Shown: positions 10,285 through 44,357 of the stretch, piece by piece
How positions within the stretch are numbered: position 1 is the first letter of the stretch
How the letters are laid out: every line of letters starts with the position of its first letter
Assembly (NCBI RefSeq): GCF_019375475.1
Contig: NZ_JAHXGQ010000003.1
Span: forward strand, 558,001 to 622,000
DNA length: 64,000 bases
Direction: 5' to 3'
Origin: Saccharothrix obliqua
GTDB taxonomy: Bacteria > Actinomycetota > Actinomycetes > Mycobacteriales > Pseudonocardiaceae
Translations under genes and position numbers: made by a program
The notes under the pieces: model-generated
Told to the model about the DNA's origin: nothing
Database searches by the model: none
The model's input: the letters and a program-made list of their open reading frames with translations, nothing else

Positions 10285-13200
10285 TCAGGACCTCTCCGGT
10301 AGTGCGCCCACGCGGGCCAGGTAGTCGATGTGGCGGCCGATCATCTCGACGTCGGCGGGCGGGAACTCGACGCCGCACGCCGCCGCCGCGGTCCAGGTGG
10401 CCGTGCAGTCGAAGCGCGGCCGGGGCCGGCCGGTGGCGGTGAGGCCGAACGCCAGCGGGCCGAAGGCGCTGTCCGGGTTGTCCAGCATCAGCGACCGCCA
10501 CGCCGGGTAGTCCAGCACCCGCGTCGGGTACCCCTTGGCGGTCAGCACCTCGCCGAGCGCCGGGTAGGTCAGGCCGTCCTCCCGGTAGTAGTGGAAGTCC
10601 CCGCCCAGCAGCTCCGGCCGGGTGGCGATGCCCGCGATCGCGCCCGCGACCCGGTCCACCGGCACCATGTCGATGACGTCGGACGTCCGCGGCACGGCGC
10701 CGGTCTGCGCGCAGGTCGCGATCTGCCTGCTCAGGTACGACTCGGCCTTCGCGGTGCCGGTGGCCACGTCGCCGACGATCGCGGCGATCCGGTGGATCGA
10801 CACCGGTAGGCCCCGGTCACGTGCCAGGACGCCCATCATGTCGGCCACCCACTTGGTGGTGTTGTAGCCGGTGTCCAGGCCGGTCGGGTCGTCGGGCCGG
10901 TCGGTCTCGCGCACGACCACGCCGCCGTAGCCGGTGCCCAGGAACACGCCGAGCGTGGACACCAGGTGCAGTGGTTTGGTGGAGTGCTTCGTGGCCAGCC
11001 GGAGGATGTCCACGGTGCCGGACACGTGCTGCGGCATCATCAGGTGGTACGGGAGCACGAAGTTGAGCACCGCGCCGTTGTGGAACACGGCGTCCATGCT
11101 TTCCGCGAGCCGGTCGAACCCGTGCTGCCCGAGGCCGAGCAGCGGTTGCGACAGGTCGCCCACCACCGGCACCACCCGCGCCCACCGCTCCTCCGGCACG
11201 TCGAGCCGCGCGCGCCGCAGGTTCGCGCGCAGCCGGGCGCCGGCCGCGTCGGGCGACTCGGCCCGCACCAGGCAGTGCACCTCGGCGGTCGTGCGGGCCA
11301 GCAGCTCGGCGAGCAGGTGCGCGCCGAGGAACCCGGTCGCGCCGGTGAGCAGCACGCGCTCGGGCGGGCCGGTCCGCACCGGGTGCGTCGGCACGATGTC
11401 GTCCGGCGGTCGGGCGTCGGCACGCATCCGGTCCGCGCTGGGCAGCCCGGTCCGGTAGCGCTCGGCGAACGCGTGGTCCGACGCGGCGGCGGCCGTCACG
11501 ACCTCGGCCAGCTCGGCGAGGTCGGCCGTGCCGAACAACGCGCGCAGCGGCACCGTGACGCCGAGCAGCGAGCGCACCTTCGCCAGCACCGCCGCCGCGA
11601 TCAGCGAGTGGCCGCCCAGCCCGAAGAAAGAGTCGTGCCTGCCCACCAGCGGCACGTCCAGCACCTCCGACCAGACGTCCGCCAGCGCCCGTTCGACGGG
11701 CGTGCGCGGTGGCTCGTAGGGCGCGACCGCGATGTCCGGTTCGGGCAGCCGCGCCACGTCCACCTTGACGTGCGCGGTGAGCGGCAGCTCCGGCAGCACG
11801 ACCCGCGCGCCCGGCAGCATCGCCGCCGGCAGGTGCTCGGCGCAGAACGCCCGCAGCTCGGCCAGTTCCGGCGCGGTCGCGCCCGGTCGCGGCACGACGT
11901 ACGCCACCAGGGTCTCCGACTTGACCGCTACAGCCGCGTCCGCGAGGTCCGGGTGTTCGAGCAGCACGGCCCGCACCTCGCCCGGTTCGATCCGGTGGCC
12001 GCGCAGCTTCACCTGGTCGTCCACCCGGCCCAGGAACTCCAGGGCGCCGTCCGGCAGCAGCCGGACCAGGTCGCCGGTCCGGTACATCCGGCCGCTCGGC
12101 ACGGTGGGGTCGGGCAGGTACCGGGCGGCGGTGCGTGCCGGGTCGTTCCGGTAACCGCGAGCGGGTGCCGCGCCGCCGATGTGGAGCTGACCGGGCACGC
12201 CGACCGGTGTCGGCCGCAGGTCCTCGTCCAACACGTACGCGCGCACGCCGGGCAACGGCCTGCCGATCGGCAGCGTCGCCGCCCGACCATCCACTTCGGA
12301 CGCGTCGAGCGTGCGGTGCGCCGTCGCGCACACCGTGGCCTCGGTGGGGCCGTAGTGGTTGACCAGCTCCACGCCGGTGGCCTTCGCCCAGTCCGCGACG
12401 GTACGCGGCGGCACGGTCTCGCCGCCGATCATCATCATCCGCAGCGGCGTGTTCTCGACGGTCACGCCCGCCAGGTCGGCCACCCACCGCTTCCACAGCG
12501 GCGCGGGCGCGTCCACGGCGGTCAACGCGTGGTCGGCGCACAACCGCACCAACTCCGGCCCACCCACCGCGGCCGGTTCCGGGTGGACGACCACGGCCGC
12601 GCCCGCGCACCACGCCGGGAACACGATGCCCGCCGACGCGTCGAAGCTCAGCGGTGGCACCATCAGGACGCGTTGCCCCGGCCCGAACCCGTGCAGGTCC
12701 ACGAACGCCCGCGCCAGGTTCGCCAGGGTGTCGTGCTGCACCTGGACGCCCTTGGGCACGCCGGTCGACCCCGACGTGTAGATGATGTACGCCAACGCGT
12801 TGTCCGCCACCCGCACGGCGGGCGGCTCGGCGGCCTCCTCGGTGAACGCGGTGAGGGAGGTGTCCAGCAGCACACCGCGGTAGTCGCCGAACCGGTCACG
12901 CGCGCCGGGCGCGGCGACGACCACCGGCGCGCCGCAGTCGGCGAGCAGCCCCGCGAGCCGGGCGGGCGGGTGCGCCGGGTCCAGCGGCACGTACGCGCCG
13001 CCCGCCTTGAGGATGCCCAGCAACGCCACCAGCGCGTCCGGTCCCGCGCGCAGCGCGAGGCCGACCGGCGTCTCCGGGCCGACGCCCAGTTCCACCAGCA
13101 GGTGCGCGACCCGGTTGGCACGGCGGTCCAGCTCGGCGAACGTCAGCTCGGCGGCGGTCGCGCCGTCCGCGTCGAGCGCCAGCACGGCCGTCGTGCCGGG

Positions 13201-14673: not shown

Positions 14674-15952
14674 GGGCTGGTCCTCTCCGGTGTGCCGGCC
14701 ACCGCGTCCGGCAGGTCGTCCACGGTCCGCAGCCGGGGCCGCGTCCAGGCGTACGCGGCCAGCGCGAGCATCAGCACGCCGGTCACGAGGAACACCAGGG
14801 CGATGCCCCGGCCGGGCCCGGTGCCGATCAACGCGCCCACCGACAACGCCAGCGGCCCGTCGGGCGTCATCAGGGGTTCCGCCACGCCGTCCGACAGGGG
14901 ACCGATCAGCAGGTACGCGACCGGCATCGCCGCGGTGCCGAGCATCCGCACCACGGCGAGCACCCGGCCGAGCACCGCCGGGTCGACCTTGGTCTGCAAC
15001 AGGGTGACGCAACTGGTGTTCATCAGCGGCAGCGTGGCCAGGAACGCGGGCGCGGCCAGGCCGATCAGCCACGGGGACGGCGCGAGGGAGTGCAGGACGA
15101 GGAACACCCCGCCCAGCGCGAGCCCGAGGTAGACGCCGAGGACGCGGCGCTTCGGGCCGCCCCACGCGCCCATCACCAGCCCGCTCGCGAACAGGCCGCC
15201 ACCACCGGCCGCCATCAGCACGCCCAGCGTGGCGGGGCCGGAGAAGGACAGGATCAGCGGCTGCACCAGGCCGCCCGCGACGGCGAACAGGAAGTTCCAC
15301 ACCCCGAACACCACGCAGAGCGCGAACAGGCCGGGCGCGCCGCGCAACCACCGCAGCCCCTCACCCGCCGCCGCCCGACCGCCACCGCCGCCACCACCGG
15401 TGACCGCGGGCAGCCTGGCGACGAGCAACGCGCCCACCGCGAACACCATCGAGACCACGTCGATCAGCAGCACGCCGGGCAACCCGACCAGGCCGAGCAA
15501 CGCGCCCGCCACCAGCGGAGCGGCGACCTGGACGCCCTGGGTGAGCTGCATCAGGCCGTTGACCCGGCCCAGGTGCTTCGGCGGCACCAGCGCGGGCACC
15601 AGCGCCTGGTAGGCGATCAGGTGGAACAGGTTGAGCGTGGCCGTGAGCGCCGCGGCGGCGTAGACCTGCCACACCGCCAACGCGCCCGCGCCGACCGACA
15701 CCAGCAGCAGCGCGGTGACCAACCCGCCACCCACGTCGGCGACCAGCATGATCCTCTTGCGGTCGTACCGGTCGGCCAGCGCGCCCGCGTACGGCGCGAG
15801 CAGGATGCCCGGCACCACGGCGCAGAACTGGATCAGCACGAACTGCGTGACCGAGCCCGTGCCCATGTACACCCACACGCCGAGCACGAACGCGGTGAGC
15901 GCGGAACCGATCACCGACACCAGCTGTCCGGCCCATACCACGGCGAACCGCT

Positions 15953-15956
<4 letters not shown>
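14670..15956 (-). CDS. MFS transporter, probable peptide exporter of the cluster
   Basis: Seen: 428 residues and about 12 membrane helices. The loop between helices 2 and 3, [16 protein letters not shown], is the MFS A-motif (G-x-L-x-D-R-x-x-R-K). The central loop has a run of glycines ([10 protein letters not shown]) separating the two halves. It resembles the enterobactin-exporter-like MFS_3 group ([16 protein letters not shown] near the start, [24 protein letters not shown]) often found inside NRPS operons. GTG at 15954-15956 overlaps the stop of the upstream NRPS gene and its own stop overlaps the next NRPS start, so its expression is locked to synthesis. It likely exports the product and gives self-protection. 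Confidence 0.88.
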
Positions 15957-19186
<3,230 letters not shown>

Positions 19187-19188
19187 GG

Positions 19189-19869
19189 TCAGCTCCCGGA
19201 CGTGGCGAGTCGGTCGGCGGCGGCGCGCACGTCGTCGCGCAGGTGCGTGGGCACGCGGTCGCCGAAGCGGCGCAGGTACGCGGCGAGCGTCACGTCGTCG
19301 TCGCGCAGGAAGGGGAAGTCGGTGGGCACCATGTTGCGGATGCCCAGCAGCGCCACGGGGCTGCGCAGCGGCCGGAAGTCCGGGTTCCACAGGCCGCCCT
19401 TGTCCGGCGGGCCGGGGTGGAACTCGCCGACCATCAGGCCGTGGTCGGTGTACTCGCGCTTCAGCAGCTCCTGCGCGCGGTCCACCACCGCCCAGTCGCC
19501 GCTGCCGGTCAGGTCCGGCAACAGCACCAGCACGGTCTTGAACTGCGCGACCGGTCCGGTGCGCGGCTCCAGCTCCAGGAACCAGTCCCGGTAGGCGAGC
19601 AGCAGGTCCGCCAGTTCCCGCGGCCCGGACGGCACACCGGGGTGCACCGACATGAAGAACAGGCCGCGCTGCAACGAGGTCGGCGTGTACGGGCACACGT
19701 CGCCGCGCCGCCCGAGGTCGGGGTGCGGTGACGACAGGTAGTCGCCCGCCCACTCGTACACGGCCCGCAACGCGGTCTCGTGCGCGGCGACCTCGTCCGG
19801 CAGCCGCTCGGCGGCGAAGTCCGCCGGTTCGACCAGCGGGTGGGTCGGCCGGGTCGGGTGGATCAGCAT
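19189..19869 (-). CDS. DUF6875-domain protein, unknown role in NRPS cluster
   Basis: Seen: 226 residues with no signal peptide or membrane segment. Recognisable blocks are [20 protein letters not shown] near 70-90, [11 protein letters not shown] near 120, an [21 protein letters not shown] segment and [15 protein letters not shown]. These match my memory of DUF6875, an uncharacterised family; that assignment needs a profile search. The conserved Cys, Tyr, His and Glu residues suggest an enzyme, and acceptance of a tailored aromatic unit is possible because the gene directly follows the KMO-like gene. Its ATG shares bases with the KMO stop (TGATG) and only 2 bases separate its stop from the next NRPS start. 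Confidence 0.7.
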
Positions 19870-21236
19870 CAGCTCACCTGCCTTCGGGCACGTCGGGTGC
19901 GGGACCGGCGGGCCAGTCCCGCGAGCGCCGCGCCGGCCAGCGCGGCGGTCACCCCGCCCAGCAGGCGGTCCTGGCGGCGCGCGCGGGCCAGGGCTTCGCC
20001 GTAGGGCACGGTGGTGTGCGTGATCAACGTGTAGAGCGGGACCCAGGACCGGGGGAAAGCCCGGTGCAGCACCAGGTCCGCCTTCTTGCGCGCGACGAAC
20101 AGCGGTGACCGCAGCTTGTCCCGCAGCTCCACGAAGTTCTGCTTGGACAGCTCGGCGAGCACGTCGGTGTGCGGACGTCGGGCCTGCTCGAACGCGGCCA
20201 GCGCGCCCGGCAGGTCGTCGGGGTGCGCGCCCAGGCACCGGTCCAGCACCGAGCAGTCCTCGAACGCCGCGTTCATGCCCTGCCCGAAGAACGGGTAGAC
20301 GGCGTGCGCGGCGTCGCCCAGCAGCACGGTGCCGCGCCCGTCGCCGGTCGGCACGTGCCACGGCGCGGTCCGGATGGTGACCAGGCTCGCCGGGCGGTGC
20401 GCGAGGAACTGCTCCACCACGTCCGGGACGAGCGCCGGCACGTCCGGGAACGCGCGGGCGAAGAAGTCGGCCACCCCGGCGTGCGTGTCCAGCCCCGCGA
20501 ACCCGTCCCGGCCCTCGAACGGCAGGAACACCGTGGCGGTGAGCGAGCCGTCCACGTTGGGGTGGGCCACGATCAGGCCGCGTTCGCCCGGCCACACGTG
20601 CAGCGCGTGCAGCGGGGTGCGTGGCCGCCCGTCGTCGCCGACGGGGATCAGCAGCTCCTTGTAGCCCCACTCCAGGAACTCCTGGTGCAACGTCATCCGC
20701 GTCCCGCGCCCGAGCTGGGCGCGCACCGCGGAGAACGCGCCGTCCGCGCCGATCACCAGCCGCGCCTCGTGCTCCACCACGCCCCGCGGGCCCTCGGCGG
20801 TGACGGCCGGTCGTTCCCGGTCGACGGCGACGACCCGGTGGCCCCAGTGGAACTCGACGCCCAGCCGCTCGGCCTCGTCCACCAGGACGACGTTCAGGTC
20901 GTGCCGGAACACCGAGTGCAGGACCTGGTCCTCCTCCGTGCCGTAGGGGTGGAAGCTCAGCGACCCGTCCGGCGCGTGCACGACCCGGCCGCGCATCGGG
21001 ACGGTGCCCGGCGCGATCCGGTCGAACAACCCGACCTCCCGGAGCGCCCGGACGCCGCGCTGCGACATGCCGAGGTTGATCGACCGACCCGCCTCGCGCG
21101 CGCCGGGCGTGCGCGGGTCGGCACGCCGCTCCAGCACGGTCACGCGGAACCCGCGCCGGGCCAGGTAGACCGACACCAGCGAACCGGCCAGCCCGGCGCC
21201 CACCACCACCGCGTCCGTCACGTGTTCATCCCCCAT
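19869..21236 (-). CDS. Kynurenine 3-monooxygenase-like FAD enzyme
   Basis: Seen: 455 residues. FAD fingerprint [20 protein letters not shown] (about 9-28), then [15 protein letters not shown] (kynurenine monooxygenase hallmark), the DG-type motif [12 protein letters not shown], and [21 protein letters not shown] near 305-325, which is nearly diagnostic of [13 protein letters not shown] segment is also KMO-like. The C-terminus is hydrophobic ([18 protein letters not shown]), as in membrane-associated KMO. Known reaction: L-kynurenine + O2 + NADPH to 3-hydroxykynurenine. No tryptophan dioxygenase or kynureninase is in the window, so kynurenine must come from elsewhere or the substrate may be carrier-bound or different. 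ATG overlaps the NRPS stop (TGATG). Confidence 0.88.
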
Positions 21237-24200
21237 CACCGGTCGTCGTCGCTCAACGTGCCGAGCAGCCGGTCGATCTCGGCGTCGGACAGGTCGTCGA
21301 GCTGGTCCAGCAGCGGCGCCGGGCCACGCGTGCCGCCGTCCGCCGTGGCCAGCGCGGCGCACAGGCCCGCGATGGTCGGCGCGGCGAACAACGCCGCGAG
21401 CGGCAGGTCCGCGCCCAGCGCCGCGCGGACGCGGGCCAGCATCCGGGTCGCGGTCAACGAGTGGCCGCCCAGCGCGAAGAAGTTGTCGTGCACGCCGAGC
21501 GGCCCGTCCTCCGGGATGCTCAGCACGTCCCGCCAGATGTCGGCCACCCGCGCCTCGTTCTCGTCACGCGGAGCGACGCGTTCCGGCGCCTCGGTGGACC
21601 AGGCGGGCTCGGGCAGGGCGGCCCGGTCGGTCTTGCCGGTGCCGGTGCGCGGCAGCTCGTCCAGCGCGGTGAGCACGCCGGGCACCAGGTACTCCGGCAG
21701 CCGCGTGGCCAGGTGCGGGCGCAGCGCGGCCAGGTCGCCGCCGGGGCGCAGCACGACGTACCCGACCAGCCGCACGTCCTCCGCGCTCGCCGACCACGTG
21801 GTGACGGCCGCGTCCGCCACGTCCGGGTGCGCCCGCAGCACGGCCTCCACCTCGCCGGGCTCGATGCGGAACCCGCGCACCTTCACCTGCCGGTCGGCGC
21901 GGCCCAGGAACTCCAGCCGCCCGTCCGCGCGCCGCCGGACCAGGTCGCCGGACGCGTAGAGCCGCCCCGCGCCGAAGGGGTCGGGCACGAACCGGTCGGC
22001 GGTCAGCCGGGGCAGTCCCTGGTAACCACGCGCCACGCCCGCGCCGCCGATGTGCAGCTCGCCGATCACACCCGGCAGCACCGGCCGCAGCAGCGGGTCC
22101 AGCACGTGCAGCGCCGTGCCGGGCACCGGCGGGCCGAGCCGGATCGGCGCGGGACCGGGCGGCACGACACCGGCCGCCGAGTACACGGTGGTCTCGGTGG
22201 GGCCGTAGCCGTCGATCAACGTCGCCCCGCCGGACTGGAGTTCGTCGGCCAGGTCCCGGCTCAGCGCCTCGCCGCCGGTCACCCGCAACCGGACCCCGGC
22301 GGGCACCCCGCCCGCCGCCACCACCAGCCGCCACGCCGCCGGGCCGCCCTGCACGACGGTCGCGCCGGACTCCGCGATGCGCCGGCGCAGCAGCGCGCCG
22401 TCCGCCACGTCCGACGGCTCCAGGGCGACCAGCGGCACGCCGCGCAGCAGCGGCACCAGCATCTCCACCGTCGAGACGTCGAACGCCGGTGTGCTGATGG
22501 CCGCCCACCGGTCGGCGGGCGACAGGTCGAGCAGCGCGTCCATCGCCCGCAGCAGCGCCGCCAGCCCGCCCTGCGTGACCTGGACGCCCTTGGGGCGGCC
22601 GGTGGAGCCGGACGTGTAGATGACGTAGGCGAGGGATTCCGGGATCAGCGGCACCGCGTCGGGTGGTGTCGCCGGGCCCTCGGCGGTGTCGAAGTCGACC
22701 TCGGTCCACGGCCCGGCGAGCCCGCCCACCGCAGCCCGCGACGGCGCGTCGGTGACCAGCACGGGCGCGCCCGCGTCGGCGACCATGGCGGCGAGGCGTG
22801 CCGCCGGCCACGACGGGTCCAGCGGCAGGTAACCCGCGCCGGCCCGCCACGCGGCGAGGATGGCGGTGATCGTCGGCGCGCCGCGGCGCAGGCACAACGC
22901 CACCGGGCGGTCGGGACGCGCCCCGGCGGCGAGCAAGGCGTGTGCCAGCCGGTTGGCGTCGCGGTCGACCTCCCCGCACGTGACGCCCTCGGCGACGGCG
23001 TCGGGATGCGCCGCCAGCGCCGCGGACACCAGGCCATGAGCGGTGTCCGCCGGTGCTGCGGTCGCCAGGCCGTGAGCGGTGTCCGCCGGTGCGGTGGTGT
23101 CCGCGTGCACCACCGGCGTCGGGTCGACCAGCGGCAGCTCGGCCACCCGCGCGGTCGGGTCGTCGTCGGCCGCCGCGGCGGCGAACACGTCGTGCAGCGC
23201 GGAGATCGTCGCCTCGTCGAACAACGCCGAGTCGTACTGCCAGCGCCCGAACCACCGGTCGCCGTCCCGCTCCACGGTCAGGAACAGGTCGAACTTCGCG
23301 CCGCCGTTCGGCACCGGCTCCGGCCGCATGGTGACGGCGCCCGCGTGCCGCGCGGCGGGCAGCGGCTGGACCGCGAACATCACCTGCACCAGCGGCGCGT
23401 GGGCGAGCACCCGCTCCGGCGCGACCAGCTCCACCACCTGCTCGAACGGCAGGTCCTGGTGCTCCAGCGCGGCCACCGTCGCCGCCTCGGCGGCACGCAC
23501 GACGTCGCCGACGGTGGTGTCCGGCGTGAACGTCGCACGCAGCGGGAGGGTGTTCGCGACGAACCCGACCAACCCCTCGGTCTCCGGTCGGGTCCGGGCG
23601 GCCACCGGCGTCGCCACCAGGAAGTCCGCCTGCCCGGTCACGCGGTGCAGCACGCACTGGAACACCGCGAGCAACCGCGCGAACGAACCGTCCGCCGCGG
23701 TCAGCTCGCGCCGCAGCTCCGCACCGCGCCCGGTGGGCGTCGCGGGCCGGGGCCGGTCGCCGGGCAGCGGCAGCACGGTCGGCACGTCCCGCAACGCCTC
23801 CCGCCAGTAGCGGGCGTCGGCGGCGAACGCGCCCGCCTCCACCTGCTCCCGTTGCCACACCGCGTAATCCGGGTACTGGACGGGCAGTTCGGGCAGCGCG
23901 TCGCCCTCACCCGCGTAGCAGCGGGCCAGCTCGTCGAACAGCACGTCGCACGACCAGCCGTCCACGACGCTGTGGTGCAGCACGAGCACCAGCACCCACC
24001 GGTCGGGCAGCCGCAGCAACGCGGACCGCAGCAGTGGACCGGCGTGCAGGTCGAACGGCTGCTCCACCAGCTCGCGCACGACCTCGTCCACCTCGTCGTC
24101 CGCCACGTCCCGCACCGGCAGGTCGACCGGCCGCGCCGTCGTCACCACCTGCACCGGAACGCCGTCCTCGGCCGCGAACGTGGTCCGCAACGCCTCGTGC

Positions 24201-24385
24201 CGCGCGACCACGGCGTTCAGCGCGCCGTGCAGCGACTCCGGCTCCACCGGGCCGTCCAGCGCCACCCGCCAGCCGATGTTGTAGACAGGGCCCGGCATGA
24301 GCTGGTCCAGCAGCCACAACCGCCGCTGGCCGGACGAGGCGGGGAACCGGAACACCTCCCGCCCGTCGGGGATCACCGTGCTCAC
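21236..24385 (-). CDS. NRPS module C-A-T
   Basis: Seen: 1049 residues. Condensation domain from SGQRRLWLLDQLMPGP with HHSVVDG near 137. Adenylation domain about 440-930 with YTSGSTGRPKG near 590, [11 protein letters not shown] and the lysine motif RTGTGKTDR near 915. Carrier Ser in [11 protein letters not shown] near 973. By-eye specificity residues are D-V-V-Q-V-G-G-V-Y; I know no firm match. The C-A linker contains a 12-residue in-frame tandem duplication (APADTAHGL repeated), and the A domain lacks part of the usual N-terminal block before that. GTG at 24385 overlaps the stop of the LanB-fused NRPS (GTGA); the stop overlaps the KMO start. Confidence 0.92.
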   Translation of the reverse strand: MSTVIPDGREVFRFPASSGQRRLWLLDQLMPGPVYNIGWRVALDGPVEPESLHGALNAVVARHEALRTTFAAEDGVPVQVVTTARPVDLPVRDVADDEVDEVVRELVEQPFDLHAGPLLRSALLRLPDRWVLVLVLHHSVVDGWSCDVLFDELARCYAGEGDALPELPVQYPDYAVWQREQVEAGAFAADARYWREALRDVPTVLPLPGDRPRPATPTGRGAELRRELTAADGSFARLLAVFQCVLHRVTGQADFLVATPVAARTRPETEGLVGFVANTLPLRATFTPDTTVGDVVRAAEAATVAALEHQDLPFEQVVELVAPERVLAHAPLVQVMFAVQPLPAARHAGAVTMRPEPVPNGGAKFDLFLTVERDGDRWFGRWQYDSALFDEATISALHDVFAAAAADDDPTARVAELPLVDPTPVVHADTTAPADTAHGLATAAPADTAHGLVSAALAAHPDAVAEGVTCGEVDRDANRLAHALLAAGARPDRPVALCLRRGAPTITAILAAWRAGAGYLPLDPSWPAARLAAMVADAGAPVLVTDAPSRAAVGGLAGPWTEVDFDTAEGPATPPDAVPLIPESLAYVIYTSGSTGRPKGVQVTQGGLAALLRAMDALLDLSPADRWAAISTPAFDVSTVEMLVPLLRGVPLVALEPSDVADGALLRRRIAESGATVVQGGPAAWRLVVAAGGVPAGVRLRVTGGEALSRDLADELQSGGATLIDGYGPTETTVYSAAGVVPPGPAPIRLGPPVPGTALHVLDPLLRPVLPGVIGELHIGGAGVARGYQGLPRLTADRFVPDPFGAGRLYASGDLVRRRADGRLEFLGRADRQVKVRGFRIEPGEVEAVLRAHPDVADAAVTTWSASAEDVRLVGYVVLRPGGDLAALRPHLATRLPEYLVPGVLTALDELPRTGTGKTDRAALPEPAWSTEAPERVAPRDENEARVADIWRDVLSIPEDGPLGVHDNFFALGGHSLTATRMLARVRAALGADLPLAALFAAPTIAGLCAALATADGGTRGPAPLLDQLDDLSDAEIDRLLGTLSDDDR
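23030..23092. repeat. Imperfect 36-bp tandem duplication in NRPS linker
   Basis: A 27-base unit beginning CAGGCC at 23030 recurs at 23066 with one change (A to G). The 36-base offset keeps frame and doubles the APADTAHGL sequence in the flexible condensation-adenylation linker. Confidence 0.75.
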
Positions 24386-27300
24386 CGCGCTCCTCCCTTG
24401 CGCCAACCACGCCGGTCGACCGCGACCAGCCGGAACTCCGCCGTGTGCCGGTTGCCCTTGGCGTCGGTGAGCCACAACCGGTCGGGGCCGGGCAGCATCT
24501 CGCCGACGGCCACCGGTGCACCCGGCCGTTCCCGTTCCAAAGCACGCACCGCGTGCGCGAACAGCTCCACCGACGGACCGCTCTCCAGGTCCACGTAGAA
24601 CGGCTTGTGCTCGATCGGGCTCTTCACGAACACGAACCGGGGAATCCCGTGCTCGCGCCGCCACGCCCGCGCGCCGAGGAACCGGGCGGGTTCGTCGGCG
24701 GCGAACGCGAACCGCGTGCGGGCCGCGGGCAGCTGCCAGCTCTCCCGCACCACGACCAGCCGGTCCAGGCTCACCCGCGGCGTGTGCTCGCCCGCGGGCA
24801 CCAGCCGGAACCGCTGCACCAGCTGACCCATCACCTGCTCGCCGAGCAGTTCGGGCAGGTCCAGGTCCACCCGGCCGTCCCGGCTGCGCACCCGCAGCCG
24901 GCCGCCCTCCTCCACCACCTCGCACTCGCCGACCGGCACCGCGCCCGCCAGGTCCGAGCCGCACGAGTCGTGGCCGTACGCGATCCGCAGGTCCTCCGGC
25001 AGCACCAGCGCGTCGGCCAGCCGCTGCGGCGTGCCGCCCTCCTCGCGGGTGGCGCCCATGACGACCCGCGGCCCGCCCATGTCGCGTGCCATCGCCGTGC
25101 GCAACTGCGCCGGGTCGGGGTGCTGCGACACGAACAACGCCGACCGCATGGTGTTCACGCCGGGGTGCACCTCGCCCAGCACCCACTGGAAATCGCCCGC
25201 CCGCACGGCATCCGCGTCACGCGCGGCGAGCAGCACGTCCGGGCTGTGCTGCACCGCGCCCCGCCACCCCGGCCGGGGCGCGGCGAACAACCCCAGCGCG
25301 GCGTCCCGCACGTCCGCGACGGACCGCCGCACGTGGCGGGCGGCCGGGTCGTGCGTGCCGATCGCCGTGGCCCACCGCTCCTGGAGCGCGGTGACCAGGC
25401 GTCCGGTCACGCGGTCGTCCAAGCGGAAGATGGTGTCGTTGGCCCACAACCAGAAGTCCGCCAACCGCACCGGACCGCGCCCGCCGCCGTGCTCCCGGAA
25501 CACGTCCTTGAGCGCCCGCGCGTACAACGCGGAACCGGCGCAGGTGAACCAGCGCGCGGCTTCGAGCACCGGTTCCAGCGCGGGCCACAGGGTGTCCAGC
25601 AGGTCGGGGGAGAGGGTGACCTCCAGGTCGCGGCGGCACTCCTCGTGCACCACCGTGCGACCCGCGTAGAACAGGCCGGGTCGGCGCACCGCCTCCGTGC
25701 CGGTCAGCGCGGTGAACCTGGCGTGCAGGGCGTCGACGGCACGCACGAGGGCGTCCGGATCGCCCGCGGCGGCGGCGACTTCGTCGCGCCCGGCGACGAC
25801 CTCGTCCAGCGCCGCGGTGACCCGTGCCCGCACACCGGCGTCGCCGATCGCGTCGACCTGCGCGCGCAACGCGTCCTCCGGCACCAGCGCGGACGGCGGC
25901 ACCTCCAGCGTCCACGCGATGCGCTTGGCCCGGCGCAGGCGGTCCAGGACGGCGAACACCGCGTCCGGCTCCGCGCCGATCCGGCCCGCGATGGCGTGGG
26001 CCGGGGTGCTGCCGTCGCACGCGGCGAGCACGGCGGCCTCCAGCGGCGGCAGCCGGATCGGCTCGGCCAGCGGCACGTGCAGGAGATCGCCCGTCACCGC
26101 CAGGAACGGCATCCGCCGCGGCACGGCCCACGGCCGCACCTCGTCGTCGGTCAGCGCCTCGGCGAGCCGCTGCACCGCCCAGTTCTCCAGGTACGTGGTC
26201 CGCTGGTCGACCAGGCCGGGGCCGGGCCGGAACCGCAGCGGTTCGGTCGCGTCGTCCTCGATCCGAGCCCAGCCGACCGGGCCGAAGAAGCCGATGGTGT
26301 CGTTCTTGGCGCAGTACCGCTGGAGGTAGCTGACGACGGTGTGCTCCCAGCGCCGGTAGTCGACGTTGCGCTCGGCGCCGCGCCGCCCGCTCAACGCCTC
26401 GTGCAGCGCGTCCACGGCGGTCTGGAGGGCACGCGGGTTCTGCCACGCGACGGCTTCCCGGAACTTCGGGTCGCCGCTCACCTCGCGCAGCACCTCGGCG
26501 GCTGCCCGCCGCCCCGCCTCGAACCGCTCGGCGTAGTCGGCCAGCGCGGCGGCGTGCCGCTCGGCGGCGCGCGCGGCTCCGGTGAGGGCTCGCGCCACGT
26601 CGCCCAGCGACTCCGCTTCGAGCGCTGAACCAGTCGGATCGCCCGGCGCGGTGCCGGCTGCCGCGGCGTCCACTTCGGACGCTGTTCCGGCACCGGGTGT
26701 CGCGTCTCCCAGCGCGGCGAGCGCGTCCGCGAACCGGCCCTTGCGGATCAGCCGCCCGATCCGGCGCAGCGCCGAGCGCTGCTCGCCCGTCGTCCGGTCC
26801 TCCACGGCGCGCAGCACCCGGAAAGCACCCCACCGGGCCTGCCCGAGCGCGTCCTCGGCGGCCAGCACCTCCTCGGCGGCGCGTGCCGCGTCCGGACTGG
26901 CCACGGCGAGCAGCGGCTCGATCCCGAAGCCCGTGGCACGCAGCTCGACCCACCGCCACACCGCCCAGTCACCGGTGCCGCGCGGCAGCACTAGGTGGTC
27001 GGGGACGGTGGTCGCCGGCGTGCGTTGCGCGGGCACCCGGTAGGCGGTGCGGTCGCGCCGGGTGATGCCACCGGACGGCCGCACGGCCCGCGCGCGGTCC
27101 ACGACTTCGGCGCACGCGGCGAGCGTCCGGGCCCGGTGCAGGTCGGCCACCGCCACGTCCACGCCGAACTCCTCGCGCACCCGGAACGCCATCCGCACGG
27201 CGAGCAGCGAGTTGCCGCCCACCGCGAAGAAGTCGTCCCCGGGCGCGACGTCCGGGTGGCCGAGCAGCGCGTGCCACAGCTTCGCCAACCGCTGCTGCGT

Positions 27301-30123
27301 GCCCGCGGCGGGCGCGGCCCGCCCGGCCGACCTGGTCGCGCGCAGGGCGGCCCGGTCCAGCTTGCCGGACCGGTTGAGCGGCAACGCGTCCAGCGGCACG
27401 TACCGCGCCGGGCGCAGGTACTCGGGCAGCCGGTCCGCCACCGCGCGGCGCAGGTCGTCCTCGGTCGCGCCGACCACGTACGCCACCAGGTGCCGCGCGT
27501 CGTCGTCACCGGACGGCAGCACCGCGGCCTCCACCGCGCCCGCGGCCCGCAACGCCGCCTCCACCTCGGCGGGCTCGACCAGGTAACCACGCACCTTCAC
27601 CTGCCGGTCGGCGCGGCCCAGGAACTCCAGCACGCCGTCGGGTCGCCACCGGGCCAGGTCGCCGGTCCGGTACAGCCGCGCGCCGGGCGTCGTGGCGAAC
27701 GGGTCGGGCACGAACTTCGCCGCCGTCAGCGCGGCGTCGCCCCAGTACCCGCGCGCCAGGCCCGCGCCACCGGTGTACAGCTCGCCGGGCACGCCGACCG
27801 GGACCGGGCGCATCCGCCGGTCCAGCACGTACACCGACGTGCCCCGGATCGGCGTGCCGATCGGCACGGTCGCCCCGACCCGCTCCGGGTCGGTGAGCAC
27901 GTGGCACGCGGTGAACGTGGTGTTCTCGGTGGGGCCGTAGCCGTTGACCACCGGCTTGCCCACGCGGGCCACCAGGGCGGTGCGCACGGCGTCCGGCTGG
28001 AGCACGTCGCCGCCCGCCAGCACCTGGTCCACTTCGGCGAGCACGTCCGGCGCGTGCGCCGCGAGCTGGTGGAACAGCCCGGCGGTCAGCCACAGCACGT
28101 CGACCCGGTGCGTGCGCAGCGCTTCCGCCAGCACCGCCGGGTCCGCCGCGCCGTCCGGCGCGGGCGCCACCCGGCCGCCGGTCAGCAGCGCTCCCCACAC
28201 CTCCAGCGTCGTGGCGTCGAACGCCGTCGACGACAGGTGCAGCGTCGTCCGGCCGGGGCCGAGGGTCGCGAACGAGGGCTCCCACACCAGGCGCGCCACA
28301 CCCCGGTGCGGCACCGCCACGCCCTTGGGCCGGCCGGTCGAGCCGGACGTGTAGTTCAGGTACGCCAGGCCGAGCGGGTGCGCGACCGGCGGCAGGGGCG
28401 TCGCCGGACCGTCCAGTTCGGACAGCCGCAGCGCGGTCACGCCGGCCGGCAGTGCGCGTGGTTCGGCCACGACGACCAGTTCGGCACCGGACTCGGTGAG
28501 CGCCACCGCGTCCCGCGCCGCCGGGTTCCCGGGGTCCAGCGGCAGGTACGCCGCGCCGGTCTTGAGCACGGCGAGCATGGCGGTCACCAGGTCCGCGCCA
28601 CGCGGCAGCGCCAGCCCGACGGGGTGGTCCGGCCGCGCGCCACGCGCGAGCAACGCGTGGGCGACGCGGTTGGACCGCGCGTCCAGTTCCGCGTAGCTCA
28701 GCCACCGGGTCGAGTCGTGCACCGCGTCGGCGTCCGGGCGCAGCCGCACCTGCTCGGCGAACAGCTCGGGCACGGTCGCGTCCACCGTCAGCGCGGCCAC
28801 GCCGCTCCACCGCTCCAGCAGCCGGGTACGTTCCGCGCCACGTGGTTCGAGCAGCTCGCGCACCGGGCGGTCCGGCGCCTGCGCCAAGCCCGCCAGCAGG
28901 TCGCGGTACCGGGTGAGCAGCGCGTCGGGCGCCCAGTCGGGGAACCGGGTGGTGTCGTGGATGAGCCGCAGGCTCAGGCGTGGTTCGGCGAACGCGTAGA
29001 GCGTCAGGGCGTAACCGGGGCTGCGCAGGATGTCCACGTGCCGTCCGGGCGGCGCGGTCGGGCGTGCGGACAGCACGGTGTTGATCTCGCGGTGCTCGAA
29101 CAGCACGAGGCTGCGCATCAGGTCGTCGTGGCCCGCCGCGTGCTGGATCTCCGGCAGCGGCGTGAGCTGGTGGTCGCGCGCGGCGACCGATCGCGCCCGC
29201 ACGTCGCGCAGCCAGTCCGCCACCGCGCGCTCGCCCGGCACCGGCAGGCGCAGCGGGACGGTGGCGAGCAGCAGGCCGACCATGTCCTCCGCGCCCGGTG
29301 TCGAACCGTGCCGGGCGGCGCGGGTCACGCCGAACACCGCCTCGTCCGCACCGGAGTGCATGGCGAGCAGCAGGCCCCACGCGGCGAGCACGACGGTGTT
29401 CGGCGTGACGCCCGCGGACTCGGCCAGCACGCGCACCGCGGTCGTCTCCCCGGTGGACAGCTCGACCGTCGCGGTGGCCATCACCGGCGCGTCGGAACCG
29501 TTGTGCTCCAACGGGAGCGGTGCGGGCGCGGGCAGCCCGGACAGCTCGGTCGCCCAGAACCGGCGGTCCGCGACGGCCCGCGGGTCGGCGGGGTCGGTGC
29601 GCTCGGCGTACCAGCGCGCGTAGTCGGCGAAGTCCGGGCGCGGCGCGAACTCGGCCGTGCCGCCGGCCGCGTACGCGTCGTCGATCTCGGACAGCAGGAT
29701 CGCGAGCGACCGCCCGTCCAGGATCGCGTGGTGGAACGTCGCCACCACCACGTTGCCGGGCAGTGCGCGCACCCGCAGCGGGGGGCCGTTCACCGGGTCC
29801 ACCCCGGCCCGCCGGTCGGCGGCGAGGAACGCGGCCAGGTCGGTGACCGAGTCGTCCGCGGTGATCGGCACGTCCGACGCCGGGCCGGGCACCTGCTCGG
29901 CGTCGCCGTCGGGCCGCCAGCGGAACCGCGTGCGCAGCACCGGGTGCCGTCGCACGGCACCCCGCCACGCCGCCAGGTAGGCCGCGCGGTCGAACGGCGC
30001 GGCGAACCGCTGCACGCACTGGATGACGTCGGTGCCCGCCGCCGGGTCGCGCAGACCGGCCGCGATCATTCCGCGTTGCAGCGGCAGCGCGGGCGCGCCC
30101 CGGACCGCCGGATACGTGTCCAC
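24382..30123 (-). CDS. NRPS C-A-T fused to a LanB-type (lantibiotic dehydratase N-terminal) domain
   Basis: Seen: 1913 residues. Condensation domain 1-430 with HHAILDG near 129. Adenylation domain about 440-920 with YTSGSTGRPKG near 590, GYGPTENTTF and RSGKLDR near 916. Carrier Ser in FFAVGGNSLL near 969. From about 1020 to the end (about 890 residues) is a lantibiotic-dehydratase-like region: DHLVLPRGTGDWAVWRWVEL, YRRWEHTVVSYLQRYCAKND, TIGFFGPVGWARI, ETLFDLDVTLSP-like LEVTLSPDLLDTLWPALEP, and a C-terminal RFVFVKSPIEHKPFYVDLES. The SpaB_C elimination domain is absent. By-eye A code D-A-L-W-L-G-G-T-F fits valine or a similar aliphatic residue. Known LanB and PEARL enzymes use aminoacyl-tRNA; here the role is unknown. 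GTG at 30123 has GGGAGG 5 bases before. Confidence 0.92.
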   Translation of the reverse strand: MDTYPAVRGAPALPLQRGMIAAGLRDPAAGTDVIQCVQRFAAPFDRAAYLAAWRGAVRRHPVLRTRFRWRPDGDAEQVPGPASDVPITADDSVTDLAAFLAADRRAGVDPVNGPPLRVRALPGNVVVATFHHAILDGRSLAILLSEIDDAYAAGGTAEFAPRPDFADYARWYAERTDPADPRAVADRRFWATELSGLPAPAPLPLEHNGSDAPVMATATVELSTGETTAVRVLAESAGVTPNTVVLAAWGLLLAMHSGADEAVFGVTRAARHGSTPGAEDMVGLLLATVPLRLPVPGERAVADWLRDVRARSVAARDHQLTPLPEIQHAAGHDDLMRSLVLFEHREINTVLSARPTAPPGRHVDILRSPGYALTLYAFAEPRLSLRLIHDTTRFPDWAPDALLTRYRDLLAGLAQAPDRPVRELLEPRGAERTRLLERWSGVAALTVDATVPELFAEQVRLRPDADAVHDSTRWLSYAELDARSNRVAHALLARGARPDHPVGLALPRGADLVTAMLAVLKTGAAYLPLDPGNPAARDAVALTESGAELVVVAEPRALPAGVTALRLSELDGPATPLPPVAHPLGLAYLNYTSGSTGRPKGVAVPHRGVARLVWEPSFATLGPGRTTLHLSSTAFDATTLEVWGALLTGGRVAPAPDGAADPAVLAEALRTHRVDVLWLTAGLFHQLAAHAPDVLAEVDQVLAGGDVLQPDAVRTALVARVGKPVVNGYGPTENTTFTACHVLTDPERVGATVPIGTPIRGTSVYVLDRRMRPVPVGVPGELYTGGAGLARGYWGDAALTAAKFVPDPFATTPGARLYRTGDLARWRPDGVLEFLGRADRQVKVRGYLVEPAEVEAALRAAGAVEAAVLPSGDDDARHLVAYVVGATEDDLRRAVADRLPEYLRPARYVPLDALPLNRSGKLDRAALRATRSAGRAAPAAGTQQRLAKLWHALLGHPDVAPGDDFFAVGGNSLLAVRMAFRVREEFGVDVAVADLHRARTLAACAEVVDRARAVRPSGGITRRDRTAYRVPAQRTPATTVPDHLVLPRGTGDWAVWRWVELRATGFGIEPLLAVASPDAARAAEEVLAAEDALGQARWGAFRVLRAVEDRTTGEQRSALRRIGRLIRKGRFADALAALGDATPGAGTASEVDAAAAGTAPGDPTGSALEAESLGDVARALTGAARAAERHAAALADYAERFEAGRRAAAEVLREVSGDPKFREAVAWQNPRALQTAVDALHEALSGRRGAERNVDYRRWEHTVVSYLQRYCAKNDTIGFFGPVGWARIEDDATEPLRFRPGPGLVDQRTTYLENWAVQRLAEALTDDEVRPWAVPRRMPFLAVTGDLLHVPLAEPIRLPPLEAAVLAACDGSTPAHAIAGRIGAEPDAVFAVLDRLRRAKRIAWTLEVPPSALVPEDALRAQVDAIGDAGVRARVTAALDEVVAGRDEVAAAAGDPDALVRAVDALHARFTALTGTEAVRRPGLFYAGRTVVHEECRRDLEVTLSPDLLDTLWPALEPVLEAARWFTCAGSALYARALKDVFREHGGGRGPVRLADFWLWANDTIFRLDDRVTGRLVTALQERWATAIGTHDPAARHVRRSVADVRDAALGLFAAPRPGWRGAVQHSPDVLLAARDADAVRAGDFQWVLGEVHPGVNTMRSALFVSQHPDPAQLRTAMARDMGGPRVVMGATREEGGTPQRLADALVLPEDLRIAYGHDSCGSDLAGAVPVGECEVVEEGGRLRVRSRDGRVDLDLPELLGEQVMGQLVQRFRLVPAGEHTPRVSLDRLVVVRESWQLPAARTRFAFAADEPARFLGARAWRREHGIPRFVFVKSPIEHKPFYVDLESGPSVELFAHAVRALERERPGAPVAVGEMLPGPDRLWLTDAKGNRHTAEFRLVAVDRRGWRKGGAR

Positions 30124-41128: not shown

Positions 41129-41545
41129 GTGGAGTGGCTGACCGTGCGCCGGGGCGTCCCCGCCGAACCGGGGCCGTTGCGCGAGATGGACGTGTGGTGG
41201 GACCGGATGGGTCGCACCCTGGGCCGTACCTGGGACGTGTCGGCCGACGAGAGCTGCCCGTCGTCCGTGGACGTCGTGGTGACCGCGCAGGCGTACCTGT
41301 TCGCGACCGAACTGCCCGGTGTCGCCTCGCACGACCTGGCGGTGGAGGTGCACGACCACGACGTGCGCCCAGATGGCCTCCCCGTGCCACGCGCCCGCAT
41401 CGCCATCACCGTCCGCGGCCCCCGTGGCTGCTACTACCGCGCCACGCTGCCGGCGGAGGTCGACGTGGACCACGTCGAGGCGTGGCTGCTGGACGGCGTG
41501 CTGGTCGTCCGAGCCCCCCGCGTCACGTCGGCCGTGGGCAACTGA
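41129..41545 (+). CDS. Hsp20 / alpha-crystallin-like protein
   Basis: Seen: 138 residues. After MDVWWDRMGRTLGRTWDVS, the domain shows the small heat-shock beta-sandwich pattern: VDVVVTAQAYLFATELPGVASHDLAVEVHD, then ARIAITVRGPRGCYYRATLP and the final AWLLDGVLVVRAPR, equivalent to the Hsp20 A-x-L-x-N-G-V-L motif with Asp for Asn. The C-terminal I-x-I tail is missing, so large oligomers may not form. GTG at 41129 has GGGGGTGG upstream. Chaperone role is inference from fold. Confidence 0.72.
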   Translation: MEWLTVRRGVPAEPGPLREMDVWWDRMGRTLGRTWDVSADESCPSSVDVVVTAQAYLFATELPGVASHDLAVEVHDHDVRPDGLPVPRARIAITVRGPRGCYYRATLPAEVDVDHVEAWLLDGVLVVRAPRVTSAVGN

Positions 41546-42331
41546 GCGCCGGCTCCTCCCCACGCCGGCCCGGATGCGGAATGCGCGGTCCCCGTTGCCG
41601 ACAACGGGCCTTCCGCTTTCGCTGGCAGGTATTTATTCCTTACCGCAGCGAATTTTGTGAGTGCGGACTAATCGGTGGTGCACTTCGGCGTATCCGGGGA
41701 TCAGCGCTGGATGATGCGTGCTGATTGGTTGCGCTGAACGGTCCGAGGCCGTTCGACGCAGCACGGCCGCCGTTTGTCGAGCGGCACTGCTCGGCATTGG
41801 CTTTCCGATCGCGCGGTCCGGCACACTTCAGGACATCCCTGTCCGGAGTTGACGCCCGGGCAGGAGTGCGGCCCCCTGCGCCAACAGGGGGCCGCGTGAG
41901 TCCCAGCCCTGTCGATCCCGGGTCTGCAACCGGAAGACCGTTGGAGGAACTGCCGTTGAGTGTAGTGCCGTCTACAGGTGTAGGCACCGCGATTGACGAA
42001 TCCCGAACGGATGGTCTCGGTCGGAGAGCGTGGCGCCGCACCGGAGTGCCGCGGTCTCCCAGGTCGGAGGCGAGTTCGCGGGAGGTCCGTTGACCCCGTC
42101 CGCATGTCGGGTCCGGTGCTCATCCGACTGCCGCGCATCGGCCGCCGAGCCGTCCCGCTGACCCCGCGGCCCGGCGTCAGACGCCTGCCGCTGTCCGGAA
42201 TCCGACACCAGTCGGATTCCCGTCCATCGCCGTGCGATGCCCGCGCCCCGAAAGCGGGCAGTGCGCGCACTCGACTTCCCGGACCGGCCTGTGCGCGTGT
42301 CCGGCCTCACGACAAGGACTTCGAAATAACC
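41546..42331. other. Intergenic stretch with terminator and AT-richer segments
   Basis: About 785 bases between the Hsp20-like and TIGR04141-like genes. I find no supported gene. It contains an AT-rich segment at about 41630-41690, likely promoter-bearing, and the strong hairpin at 41868-41895. The sequence style differs from its neighbours, which fits an insertion edge. Confidence 0.6.
41868..41895. terminator. Hairpin with 11-bp perfect stem
   Basis: GCGGCCCCCTG-CGCCAA-CAGGGGGCCGC. It is about 320 bases beyond the Hsp20-like stop and 440 before the next gene, so it probably insulates the TIGR04141-like gene from upstream transcription. Confidence 0.65.
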
Positions 42332-43999
42332 ATGAGCCGCCAGCCGCTGCCGTGTGCCCAGGTGACACTGCACCGTTATAGGGGTGGTCGCCCCCTGCCT
42401 GAGTACGTACCTTTCATCGCTGGCCTGATCATCCAACGCGAGGGTTACGTCGCTATTGATGGTGTTCGTGCGTACACCATCGCGGGCGTCCGGCCCGCCG
42501 GCGCGCCGGCTTGGCACAAGGACTACACGCACGTCATCGACGAGAACGTGGACCTCGTGGGTACCACGCCATTTGCCGTGATCGTGCTGCCGGTGGGCCG
42601 CTGGGTGGTGGTCGCCACCTACGGAGGTGGTCACCACTTGCTGGACGACTCCGGTTTGGACGAGGGCTTCGGCCTCCTCTACGCGATCCGGAGGCTCGAC
42701 CCGGCCGAGCTCCGCACGGTGACCAGCAGCAGGCTCGACTTGTCGGCGCGGGTCAGCCGGACGTCGTTCCCGTCCGGGAGTCCCGTCGCCGGGTTCGGCG
42801 TCGACCCGGTGGGTGAACTGGTCACCGGGCTGACGGGCAAGGCGAGCCTGGAGGGGATGACCTACCACGAGGCGACGGGTGGTCGGCAGTACCAGATCCG
42901 GGCGGGTGACTCGTTGGCGATCAAGGTCGGCAACGCCCCGGAGACCTTCGTGGCCGACATCAAGGCCATCTGCCGCATCGTGGACGAGAGCGACGACGGC
43001 TCGCCGCTGCGCCTGATCTCGCAGGTGAGGCCGTTGCGGACCAGCAGCCCGCTGATCGCCGGGCTGGAGGACCGCCTCGCGGTCGCGCTCGGTGGCGACG
43101 ACCGGTTCGGGTCGCTCGGCCTTTGCCTGCCGACGACCGCGGTGGCCGCCGTGGACGAGGCGAACTCGTACTACTCCGACGGCGTGGGTGGTTCCGGACC
43201 GTTCGCGCTCGACGCCGACCTGGACGCGACGGTGCTCGTCGAGCGCTTCGCCGCGATCTCGGAGTCCACGCGCGTCAGCGAGCTGCGCAAGAGCCGCCTG
43301 ACGCCCTGCGCGGACGAGCACGGCGAGGAGTCGCTGACCCGCCCGATCCCGATGGAGAAGTGGATCGCGTTCGAAACGGTGATCGACGGCAACACGTACT
43401 GCCTGCACCAGGGTCGGTGGTACGAGATCGGGGAGGACGCCGCCGACCGGGTGCGGGAGCAGGTCGCCGACTTGCTCGTGAACCGGAGTTCGCTCGACTT
43501 CCCGCTGTGGACGCCGACCGGGAAGAGCGACGACGAGCACCGGTACTGCGAGCGGGTGGCGCGGCAGCCGGGCTACCTGTGCCTCGACAAAAGCTTCGCG
43601 CACACACCGATGCACCCGAGGTTCGAACTGGCGGACGTGATCGGGCCGGGCAACGAGATCGTGCACGTCAAGTGGCTGGCCCGAGCGGCGGCCGCGAGCC
43701 ACCTGTTCACCCAGGTCAGGGTGTCGGCTTGGGCGCAGCGGGTGGAGGCGGCCGCGATGGCGCAGTTGGACGCCAAGGTCCACCTGCTCGACGACAGCCG
43801 GCGGGTGACCGAGCGCCCGCGGGTGGTGGTCCTGGCGATCGCCGGGCGGAAGTGGGACGTGAAGACGCTTTTCACGCTCTCGATGGTGGAACTGCTGCGC
43901 CTCCGCGTCGACCTGTCGGTCGACGGGATCAGCTTGCAGTTCGCGGACATCCCGTTCGTGGCGAAGCAAGGCGGTAGCGCACGTCGCAGGGCCGCCTAG
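42332..43999 (+). CDS. TIGR04141/DUF6119 family sporadically distributed protein
   Basis: Seen: 555 residues, soluble, family-size. Recognised blocks: FAVIVLPVGRWVVVATYGGGHHLL, then LDEGFGLLYAIRRLDPAELR with TVTSSRLD, ADIKAICRIVDE, a GNTYCLHQGRWYEIG segment (the DUF6119 dGkty-L--GkWYe pattern) and EIVHVKWLARAAAASHLFTQ. Known: the family is scattered across bacteria, often near restriction or other defence genes; no function is proven. The ATG at 42332 has AAGGA about 13 bases upstream, which is far. It stands alone here, followed by a hairpin and a possible lasso precursor. Patchy distribution suggests transfer. Confidence 0.75.
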   Translation: MSRQPLPCAQVTLHRYRGGRPLPEYVPFIAGLIIQREGYVAIDGVRAYTIAGVRPAGAPAWHKDYTHVIDENVDLVGTTPFAVIVLPVGRWVVVATYGGGHHLLDDSGLDEGFGLLYAIRRLDPAELRTVTSSRLDLSARVSRTSFPSGSPVAGFGVDPVGELVTGLTGKASLEGMTYHEATGGRQYQIRAGDSLAIKVGNAPETFVADIKAICRIVDESDDGSPLRLISQVRPLRTSSPLIAGLEDRLAVALGGDDRFGSLGLCLPTTAVAAVDEANSYYSDGVGGSGPFALDADLDATVLVERFAAISESTRVSELRKSRLTPCADEHGEESLTRPIPMEKWIAFETVIDGNTYCLHQGRWYEIGEDAADRVREQVADLLVNRSSLDFPLWTPTGKSDDEHRYCERVARQPGYLCLDKSFAHTPMHPRFELADVIGPGNEIVHVKWLARAAAASHLFTQVRVSAWAQRVEAAAMAQLDAKVHLLDDSRRVTERPRVVVLAIAGRKWDVKTLFTLSMVELLRLRVDLSVDGISLQFADIPFVAKQGGSARRRAA

Positions 44000-44006
44000 G
44001 ACATGC

Positions 44007-44022
44007 CGGGGTGGTCGCCCCG
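44007..44022. terminator. Short hairpin after TIGR04141-like gene
   Basis: CGGGG-TGGTCG-CCCCG begins 8 bases after the stop codon. The 5-bp stem is modest but well placed. Confidence 0.5.
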
Positions 44023-44207
44023 ACAACCAGCCGAGACGAGCGGACACCCGGACGGGGTGGGCATTGCTTGCTCCCGGTGAGGGCGACCACCCACACGGTT
44101 GGACCCCGGGAGTCTCAGGTGGGACGTCGTTGCGCCACGTGCCGCGGGCGGCCGATGGTAGGTGGTGCGGCGGTCGTGCCGGCTGTCGCGGGTGGAAGGG
44201 GATGGTC

Positions 44208-44351
44208 ATGAACGCAAAGCCACGCCCGACTCGTTACGTGCCCCCGCTGGCCGCCAAGGCGGGGCGGGTCGGGGTTGACACGTCGGGCACCAGCATCCTC
44301 GGCTTCACGGACACCGCCACGTGGGGCTACAAGCGCCCGAAGGCGCGCTGA
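44208..44351 (+). CDS. Possible lasso-peptide precursor (47 residues), orphan
   Basis: Seen: leader MNAKPRPTRYVPPLAAKAGR followed by VGVDTS and a 21-residue end beginning GTSILGFTD and closing WGYKRPKAR. Known lasso rules: leader Y-x-x-P-x-L-x-x-x-G recognition motif, Thr at position -2, core Gly1 with Asp or Glu at 7-9. Here Tyr10, Pro13 and Gly19 keep the spacing (Leu is one residue early), Thr25 is at -2, and Gly27 pairs with Asp35 at core position 9. GGAAGGGG lies 7 bases before the ATG. No asparagine-synthetase-like cyclase, PqqD-like or transglutaminase-like gene is in the window, so maturation would need distant enzymes. It may instead be an ordinary small protein. Confidence 0.5.
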   Translation: MNAKPRPTRYVPPLAAKAGRVGVDTSGTSILGFTDTATWGYKRPKAR

Positions 44352-44357
44352 CCGGTC

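Follow-up and report, generated by a model that had tools for sequence, protein, structure and literature searches.

The window analysed here is a stretch of 64,000 nucleotides from Saccharothrix obliqua (G000:C23:558001-622000), part of a genome, G000, of 8.04 Mb in 49 contigs. It contains a small gene for a predicted lasso peptide precursor, whose features and surroundings are given below in window coordinates; other places in G000 are given by contig, C23 being the window's own.

41518 to 44353, no strand assigned: approximate insert carrying a TIGR04141/DUF6119 gene and the predicted lasso precursor gene, drawn from synteny with G006, G009, G011 and G016 and from GC content; edges inexact
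42332 to 43999, plus strand: gene of the TIGR04141/DUF6119 family (TIGR04141, 315.6 bits; Pfam PF19614, 287.2 bits)
44070 to 44204, plus strand: stretch resembling the DNA upstream of a cyclase gene on contig C47
44129 to 44161, plus strand: promoter-like motif GTTGC-N21-ATGGTAG, 79 bp 5' of the ATG, from a pattern scan of the genome
44194 to 44201, plus strand: ribosome-binding site GGAAGGGG, read from the sequence
44208 to 44351, plus strand: predicted lasso precursor gene A, 47 amino acids and a TGA stop (44349-44351), recognised by its open reading frame, its ribosome site and homologues in or beside lasso clusters
44208 to 44285, plus strand: predicted leader peptide MNAKPRPTRYVPPLAAKAGRVGVDTS, 26 amino acids, assigned by leader residues that are invariant in the family
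44286 to 44348, plus strand: predicted core GTSILGFTDTATWGYKRPKAR, 21 amino acids, with a putative ring from Gly1 to Asp9

A preliminary description of this DNA had proposed a peptide of lasso-precursor architecture behind a strong ribosome site. Such a site is present (GGAAGGGG) and lies 6 nt 5' of the ATG; translation could also start from an in-frame ATG (44202) or a TTG (44064). The N-terminal residue of lasso cores is usually Gly, and the ring is closed on Asp or Glu at positions 7-9. In the window peptide, Tyr at -17, Pro at -14, Gly at -8, Thr at -2, Gly1 and Asp9 all fall where the preliminary description had placed them, corresponding to Tyr10, Pro13, Gly19, Thr25, Gly27 and Asp35 of the full peptide, with a further Pro at position 12. 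According to PMC10368454, the leader of lasso precursors carries the motif YxxPxL between -17 and -12 and, at -2, a conserved Thr with rare Ile or Val exceptions. The Leu of this motif is missing from the window peptide, which has Ala at -12, and from its whole family (Leu in none of seven members, Ala in four, Val in three).

Searched with a strict regular expression covering the leader and the ring acid, the window matched at this open reading frame and nowhere else; 100 dinucleotide shuffles gave a mean of 0.01 matches. A looser expression averaged 0.46 matches per shuffle (n=100) and by itself would not convince. The peptide had no match at E <= 10 among the NCBIfam and Pfam models. Across the 64 kb no match was found to PF00733 (Asn_synthase), PF13471 (B2) or NF033530 (lasso PqqD/RRE), and the earlier statement that the window has neither cyclase nor protease holds for those families. 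Clustering of C, B1 and B2 with the precursor is the usual arrangement of lasso genes, though it does not define them. Elsewhere in the window, on the minus strand at 10285-30123, open reading frames of 1049 to 1913 amino acids resemble a nonribosomal peptide synthetase cluster; condensation, AMP-binding and carrier domains are present in the frame that was checked (21236-24385).

Homologues of the peptide and their neighbours

A search with the single peptide across 149 genomes, its own included, gave two convincing homologues, one in the same genus (G016; 47% identity, E 4.5e-6) and one in G000 itself at C33:~242213. At E <= 1 as many as 124 of the 149 genomes match, nearly all of it noise; nothing is left below 1e-3 but G016, C33 and the window peptide. 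The C33 gene encodes a second G000 precursor, which reads MEAQPKRYVPPMASKTGEVTRDTLGIRHRGHKDNGREGYRRRPY and has the core GIRHRGHKDNGREGYRRRPY. With a three-row model, a search of 390 genomes of the taxonomic family added a member from another genus, G269 (E 5.7e-14). This model matched 20 of the 390 genomes at E <= 0.01, but below 1e-10 only G000, G016 and G269, and its matches outside these three read as unrelated frames or as other lasso precursors. In a class-wide sample, one genome of 394 matched at E <= 1e-4, and that genome was the window's own. The two family-model searches (390 and 394 genomes) scored 18 candidates per genome and a cyclase search of 397 genomes, described below, scored three, so that absence from a genome is not proven by them.

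In G016 the locus consists, in this order, of the precursor, a cyclase of 620 aa and a B2-B1 fusion of 234 aa; in G269 the genes after the precursor encode a cyclase of 615 aa, a B2-B1 fusion of 216 aa and an ABC transporter. We also ran a pattern-limited contig scan that covered 84,980 species with a single genome each. With three cyclases as queries, 104 stretches matched and four were confirmed; with three precursors as queries, 25 stretches matched and none was confirmed. Three of the four confirmed cyclase loci belong to Streptomyces celluloflavus, Streptomyces sp. RPT161 and S. pinistramenti (L083-L085; cyclases 58-59% identical). All three carry a precursor of the same family (for example MTKNKQQPERYVPPTVAKVGHFSKDTDGTVYTLKDATTLGFKKPK), but here it is encoded divergently, ~0.65-0.85 kb from the cyclase start, and the ring Asp is at position 8, compared with 9 in the window peptide. 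Because these precursors were reached through the cyclase and the peptide was not the query, they provide independent support. Separate genes for B2 (PF13471) and B1 (PF05402) are present at the RPT161 and S. pinistramenti loci, together with an ABC transporter that was recognised by Pfam in the former and by eye in the latter, and the S. celluloflavus contig stops just past the cyclase. At the fourth locus, in Amycolatopsis anabasis (L082), no family precursor was found in the locus or the genome (150 of 152 candidates scored). By eye, the A. anabasis cyclase is followed by a cut-short B2-like start, possibly the mark of a decaying cluster.

Eleven positions, in window-peptide numbering, are invariant in all seven family members: P7, R9, Y10, P13, K17, G19, D24, T25, G27, D35 and G40. 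The leader Tyr at -17 and Pro at -14 are thereby present throughout, and the predicted ring has nine residues in three members and eight in four. As to two checks named in the preliminary description, the peptide gene lies ~0.1-0.85 kb from a lasso cyclase in all five of the other genomes in which close homologues were found, and no variation was seen at Thr25, Gly27 or Asp35. That description had also called the core unlike known lasso cores, a statement to be softened: the window tail, DTATWGYKRP, resembles the DATT(I/L/F)GFKKP of four cyclase-linked relatives. The NCBIfam leader model NF033521 (lasso_leader_L3, cut-off 19) is passed by the S. celluloflavus relative (22.2 bits), and the G269 relative (16.9) and the precursor of a further G000 cluster at C23:814 kb (16.5) both score just under the cut-off. 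The window peptide and the C33 precursor gave no match to it at E <= 10 and would go unflagged by this annotation model. A likeness to lariocidin and triculamin was considered and is unsupported: PMC11451635 describes conserved Gly neighbours of the ring Asp in these peptides, and a Gly stands directly beside the ring Asp in none of the seven members.

Homologues beside lasso cyclases, together with the constancy of Thr at -2, Gly1 and the ring Asp, bear out the proposed architecture, and the comparison of sequences makes a strong case that the 44208-44351 frame encodes a lasso precursor. Core strings and fragments had no match in the literature searched, which also yielded no characterised product of the small family that the window peptide newly joins.

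A precursor-less enzyme operon on another contig

The preliminary description had offered two explanations for the orphan gene: maturation genes elsewhere, or another class of enzyme. The former is the one that stood. An operon at C47:158147-160706 encodes a B2-B1 fusion (C47:158147-158812) and a cyclase (C47:158856-160706, with its start at 160706 on the minus strand), both in open reading frames. The cyclase is 72% identical to that of G016 and 68% to that of G269, compared with 56% for the next G000 cyclase, and in a tree of 29 cyclases it is sister to the G016 enzyme (support 0.954), followed by that of G269 (0.996). For this tree, 19 relatives' cyclase loci were taken from the search of 397 genomes of the order, in which 34 matched at E <= 1e-60 and from which G016 and G269 were absent, presumably as they fall outside the sample; G441, G069, G121 and G682 were dropped, having no frame that passed the motif filter, and one row, the second cyclase of G016, is partial. 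The C47 cyclase scores above the PF00733 cut-off and below the cyclase-specific NCBIfam cut-offs (NF033561, 236.6 against 300; NF033535, 33.4 against 525). The fusion exceeds the cut-offs of both the lasso B2 model NF033537 (105.9 bits, cut-off 33) and the PqqD/RRE model NF033530 (88.3, cut-off 70). The genome of the window peptide therefore contains C, B1 and B2 proteins orthologous to those encoded beside its homologues, and these would be its cognate partners.

The G016 and G269 operons, of A-C-B2/B1 type, share with G000 the same precursor family (P.RYVPP.A.K.G....DT.G....D....G[YF]) and an orthologous cyclase and B2-B1 fusion. In both of them the precursor is the first gene, whereas in G000 none was found in the operon and two precursors lie elsewhere. 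A family-model search of the G000 genome (E <= 1, with 150 of 157 candidates scored) and a reading of 1.1 kb around the cyclase start both failed to show a precursor on C47. The place ahead of the cyclase that holds the precursor in G016 and G269 is taken by a good ribosome site, an ATG, seven codons (MAAGAIP) and a stop. When this gap was compared with four precursor genes, a weak test for a leftover precursor, 12, 40, 219 and 7 of 300 shuffles scored as high. The locus is well inside a contig of 442 kb, so an assembly edge is not the cause of the missing precursor. Inspection by eye showed no ABC exporter gene next to the window gene or next to the C47 operon; a gene for an ABC ATPase, with no match to a membrane domain, begins ~2.6 kb past the operon.

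The DNA upstream of the window gene resembles that upstream of the C47 cyclase. Of the 150 bp before the gene, ~135 bp (44070-44204), reaching the ribosome site, are aligned, with a local alignment score of 67 against a maximum of 48 for 134 controls (the DNA before other called genes, taken from the window and from nine loci) and a BLASTN match of 77% over 35 bp (E 0.004). The upstream regions of the C33 and G016 precursors are closer still to each other (score 97; 73.6% over 106 bp, E 1.1e-10). The window region scored 50 with each of the C33 and G269 regions, a value attained by none of the 134 controls, and C33 with C47 was borderline (45; 1 of 134 as high). Control-level scores were obtained for the window with G016 (32; 25 of 134 as high) and for C47 with G016 (30; 49 of 134). 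Four of the upstream regions share a motif, GTTGC-N20/21-ATSGTRG, which is 79 bp from the window gene and likewise from the C33 gene, 82 bp from that of G016 and 185 bp from the C47 cyclase; the G269 upstream had no match to the pattern used. In the whole genome the motif has eight sites, compared with two for a reversed-pattern control, and three of the eight precede the window gene, the C33 precursor and the C47 cyclase; as the pattern was derived from the sites on which it is counted, plus that of G016, and the choice of the C47 segment followed an initial BLAST, these are controlled descriptions and not blind tests. The similarities are consistent with a common regulation of the three units, which they may reflect.

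A perfect 12-nt inverted repeat, GGGTGGTCGCCC / GGGCGACCACCC, lies between the DUF6119 gene and the precursor (44009-44020 and 44081-44092, 60 nt apart), and the aligned DNA before the C47 cyclase contains 10 nt of the repeat's right arm.

Since the C47 enzymes have no precursor and the two family precursors have no adjacent cognate enzymes, we infer that they act together in trans. We regard it as most likely that the window frame is a lasso precursor whose maturation enzymes are those of the C47 operon.

G000 has other lasso genes as well. Seven of its 12 PF00733 matches read as lasso-type cyclases; five PF13471 (B2-type) matches are over the cut-off among nine listed, and the lasso PqqD/RRE model has four matches over the cut-off and one below. 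At C33:~209 kb (L053 7590-10004) A, C and B1 are present and B2 was not found, and at C33:~237 kb (L039 4343-6939) A, C and B2 are present and B1 was not found; these two clusters are ~27 kb apart and complementary, and their cyclases are 57% identical. At C44:275542-278095 (L054 about 5543-8156) three precursors in a row (family-model matches at 275542, 275881 and 276188) are followed by one cyclase, and neither B1 nor B2 was found on C44. Such incomplete sets make the sharing of parts in trans more plausible, although they do not prove it. The family precursor at C33:~242213 is ~3.3 kb from the precursor of the 237-kb cluster and ~3.6 kb from its cyclase start; a pairing by proximity was rejected, the cluster's own leader being of another type (MYETPRLMKLG...).

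A different source of enzymes would be the complete lasso cluster at C23:814-817 kb, on the window's own contig and ~212 kb away, in which B2 and B1 are both over the cut-off. Its precursor has a related leader, RYESPVAAEVGRFTTETKG (family-model E 7.7e-10), its cyclase is 56% identical to that of C47, and it could also accept the window peptide. That this cluster matures the peptide in place of the C47 enzymes is nevertheless unlikely: it already has a precursor of its own, whose upstream region (C23:815) is unlike that of the window gene (score 28; 49 of 134 controls as high), and the close homologues found of the window peptide sit with cyclases of the C47 type and not of the C23 type.

The insert around the precursor gene

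The window gene is located in a segment that appears to have been inserted. The binding-protein gene downstream has orthologues (78-87%) in six genomes of the same genus, and no precursor was seen in the 1.5 kb before any of these orthologues. In four of the six genomes (G006, G009, G011 and G016) the gene upstream of the MarR gene corresponds to the window's own segment before 41546, and in G017 and G019 other genes are found there. The G009 sequence is homologous up to window position 41517 and again from 44390, with ~116 bp between these points compared with 2.87 kb in the window. From this comparison, the window precursor is carried by an apparent insert of ~2.8 kb that was not seen at that place in the six relatives. 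GC content is 0.66-0.71 in the insert (500-bp windows starting at 41500-43750) and 0.72-0.79 in the flanks (39.5-41.5 kb and 44.25-46 kb), but it is likewise 0.668 at 46.0-46.5 kb, so GC alone does not mark the insert. No repeats were seen exactly at the edges; a 22-nt inverted pair, 77% complementary, is found near them (41805 and 44398).

The other cargo of the insert, the DUF6119 gene, has no demonstrated tie to lasso biosynthesis. It matched none of the PADLOC models at E <= 0.01, and a literature search for TIGR04141 or DUF6119 found a single paper, off topic by its title (wheat MADS-box genes).

An insert of this kind might have carried in a stranded copy, a lasso precursor by descent that is out of use. 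The absence of the segment from that place in relatives would agree with this, as would a C47 pathway that may be decaying, having no precursor in place; the unpaired A. anabasis cyclase indicates that a cyclase without a family precursor can also be a decaying one. We find a stranded copy improbable all the same. The precursor frame, its ribosome site and its upstream region are all intact, the invariant residues have been retained though the rest of the core diverged, GC at the third codon position is 0.89, and the C47 cyclase and B2-B1 frames are still open.

That the frame is a chance or unrelated small open reading frame, or the substrate of another class of RiPP enzyme, is scarcely credible: no family model reaches the peptide directly and the window has no lasso enzyme match, but its leader and core are homologous in three genera to precursors beside lasso cyclases, the strict leader expression has almost no chance matches in shuffled windows, and the other enzyme class of the preliminary description is not needed and was rejected, since the homologues sit with lasso enzymes.

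A proposed pathway in trans

Under the reading that we prefer, a lasso precursor served by the C47 operon, the general steps of lasso biosynthesis are taken as established. The RRE (B1) half of the C47 fusion would bind the leader through YxxP, the transglutaminase-like B2 half would cleave after Ser26, with Thr at -2, and the C47 cyclase would close a ring around the tail by joining the Gly1 amine with the Asp9 side chain. The expected outcome would be a cationic lasso of 21 residues, for which the computed lactam mass of the uncut core, before any trimming, is 2307.212 Da. The general steps are described in PMC10368454 and the role of B1 in PMC5067487. By analogy with its class, the product may be guessed to be secreted and to have an antibacterial or signalling action.

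The arrangement may extend beyond a single pair. One precursor-less operon could serve two remote precursors, with the cores GTSILGFTDTATWGYKRPKAR and GIRHRGHKDNGREGYRRRPY, under related upstream regions, the precursors being insertable cassettes for a fixed set of enzymes; we give this dispersed system an even chance. The dispersed arrangement of the lasso pathway in G000 is unusual. The citrulassins (PMC12971885) likewise have a lasso pathway that is not confined to one cluster, but there the remote part is a tailoring enzyme, a PAD, whereas in G000 it is the precursor itself. No report of remote, orphan or in-trans lasso precursors was found by title and the start of the abstract, in a literature search confined mostly to journals that need no subscription.

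Tools for lasso mining rely on a precursor lying close to a cyclase. A remote precursor would be missed twice, once as a cluster without a precursor and once as a peptide without a cluster, and gene-cluster searches would catch only half of such a pathway. If lasso enzymes use remote precursors in nature, cyclase operons that have no precursor deserve a genome-wide precursor search. The two G000 precursors of the family, in the window and on C33, are delimited, like the enzyme pair, with enough precision for testing in a laboratory Streptomyces host. If the proposal is true, lasso products may spread by transfer of a short precursor gene alone.
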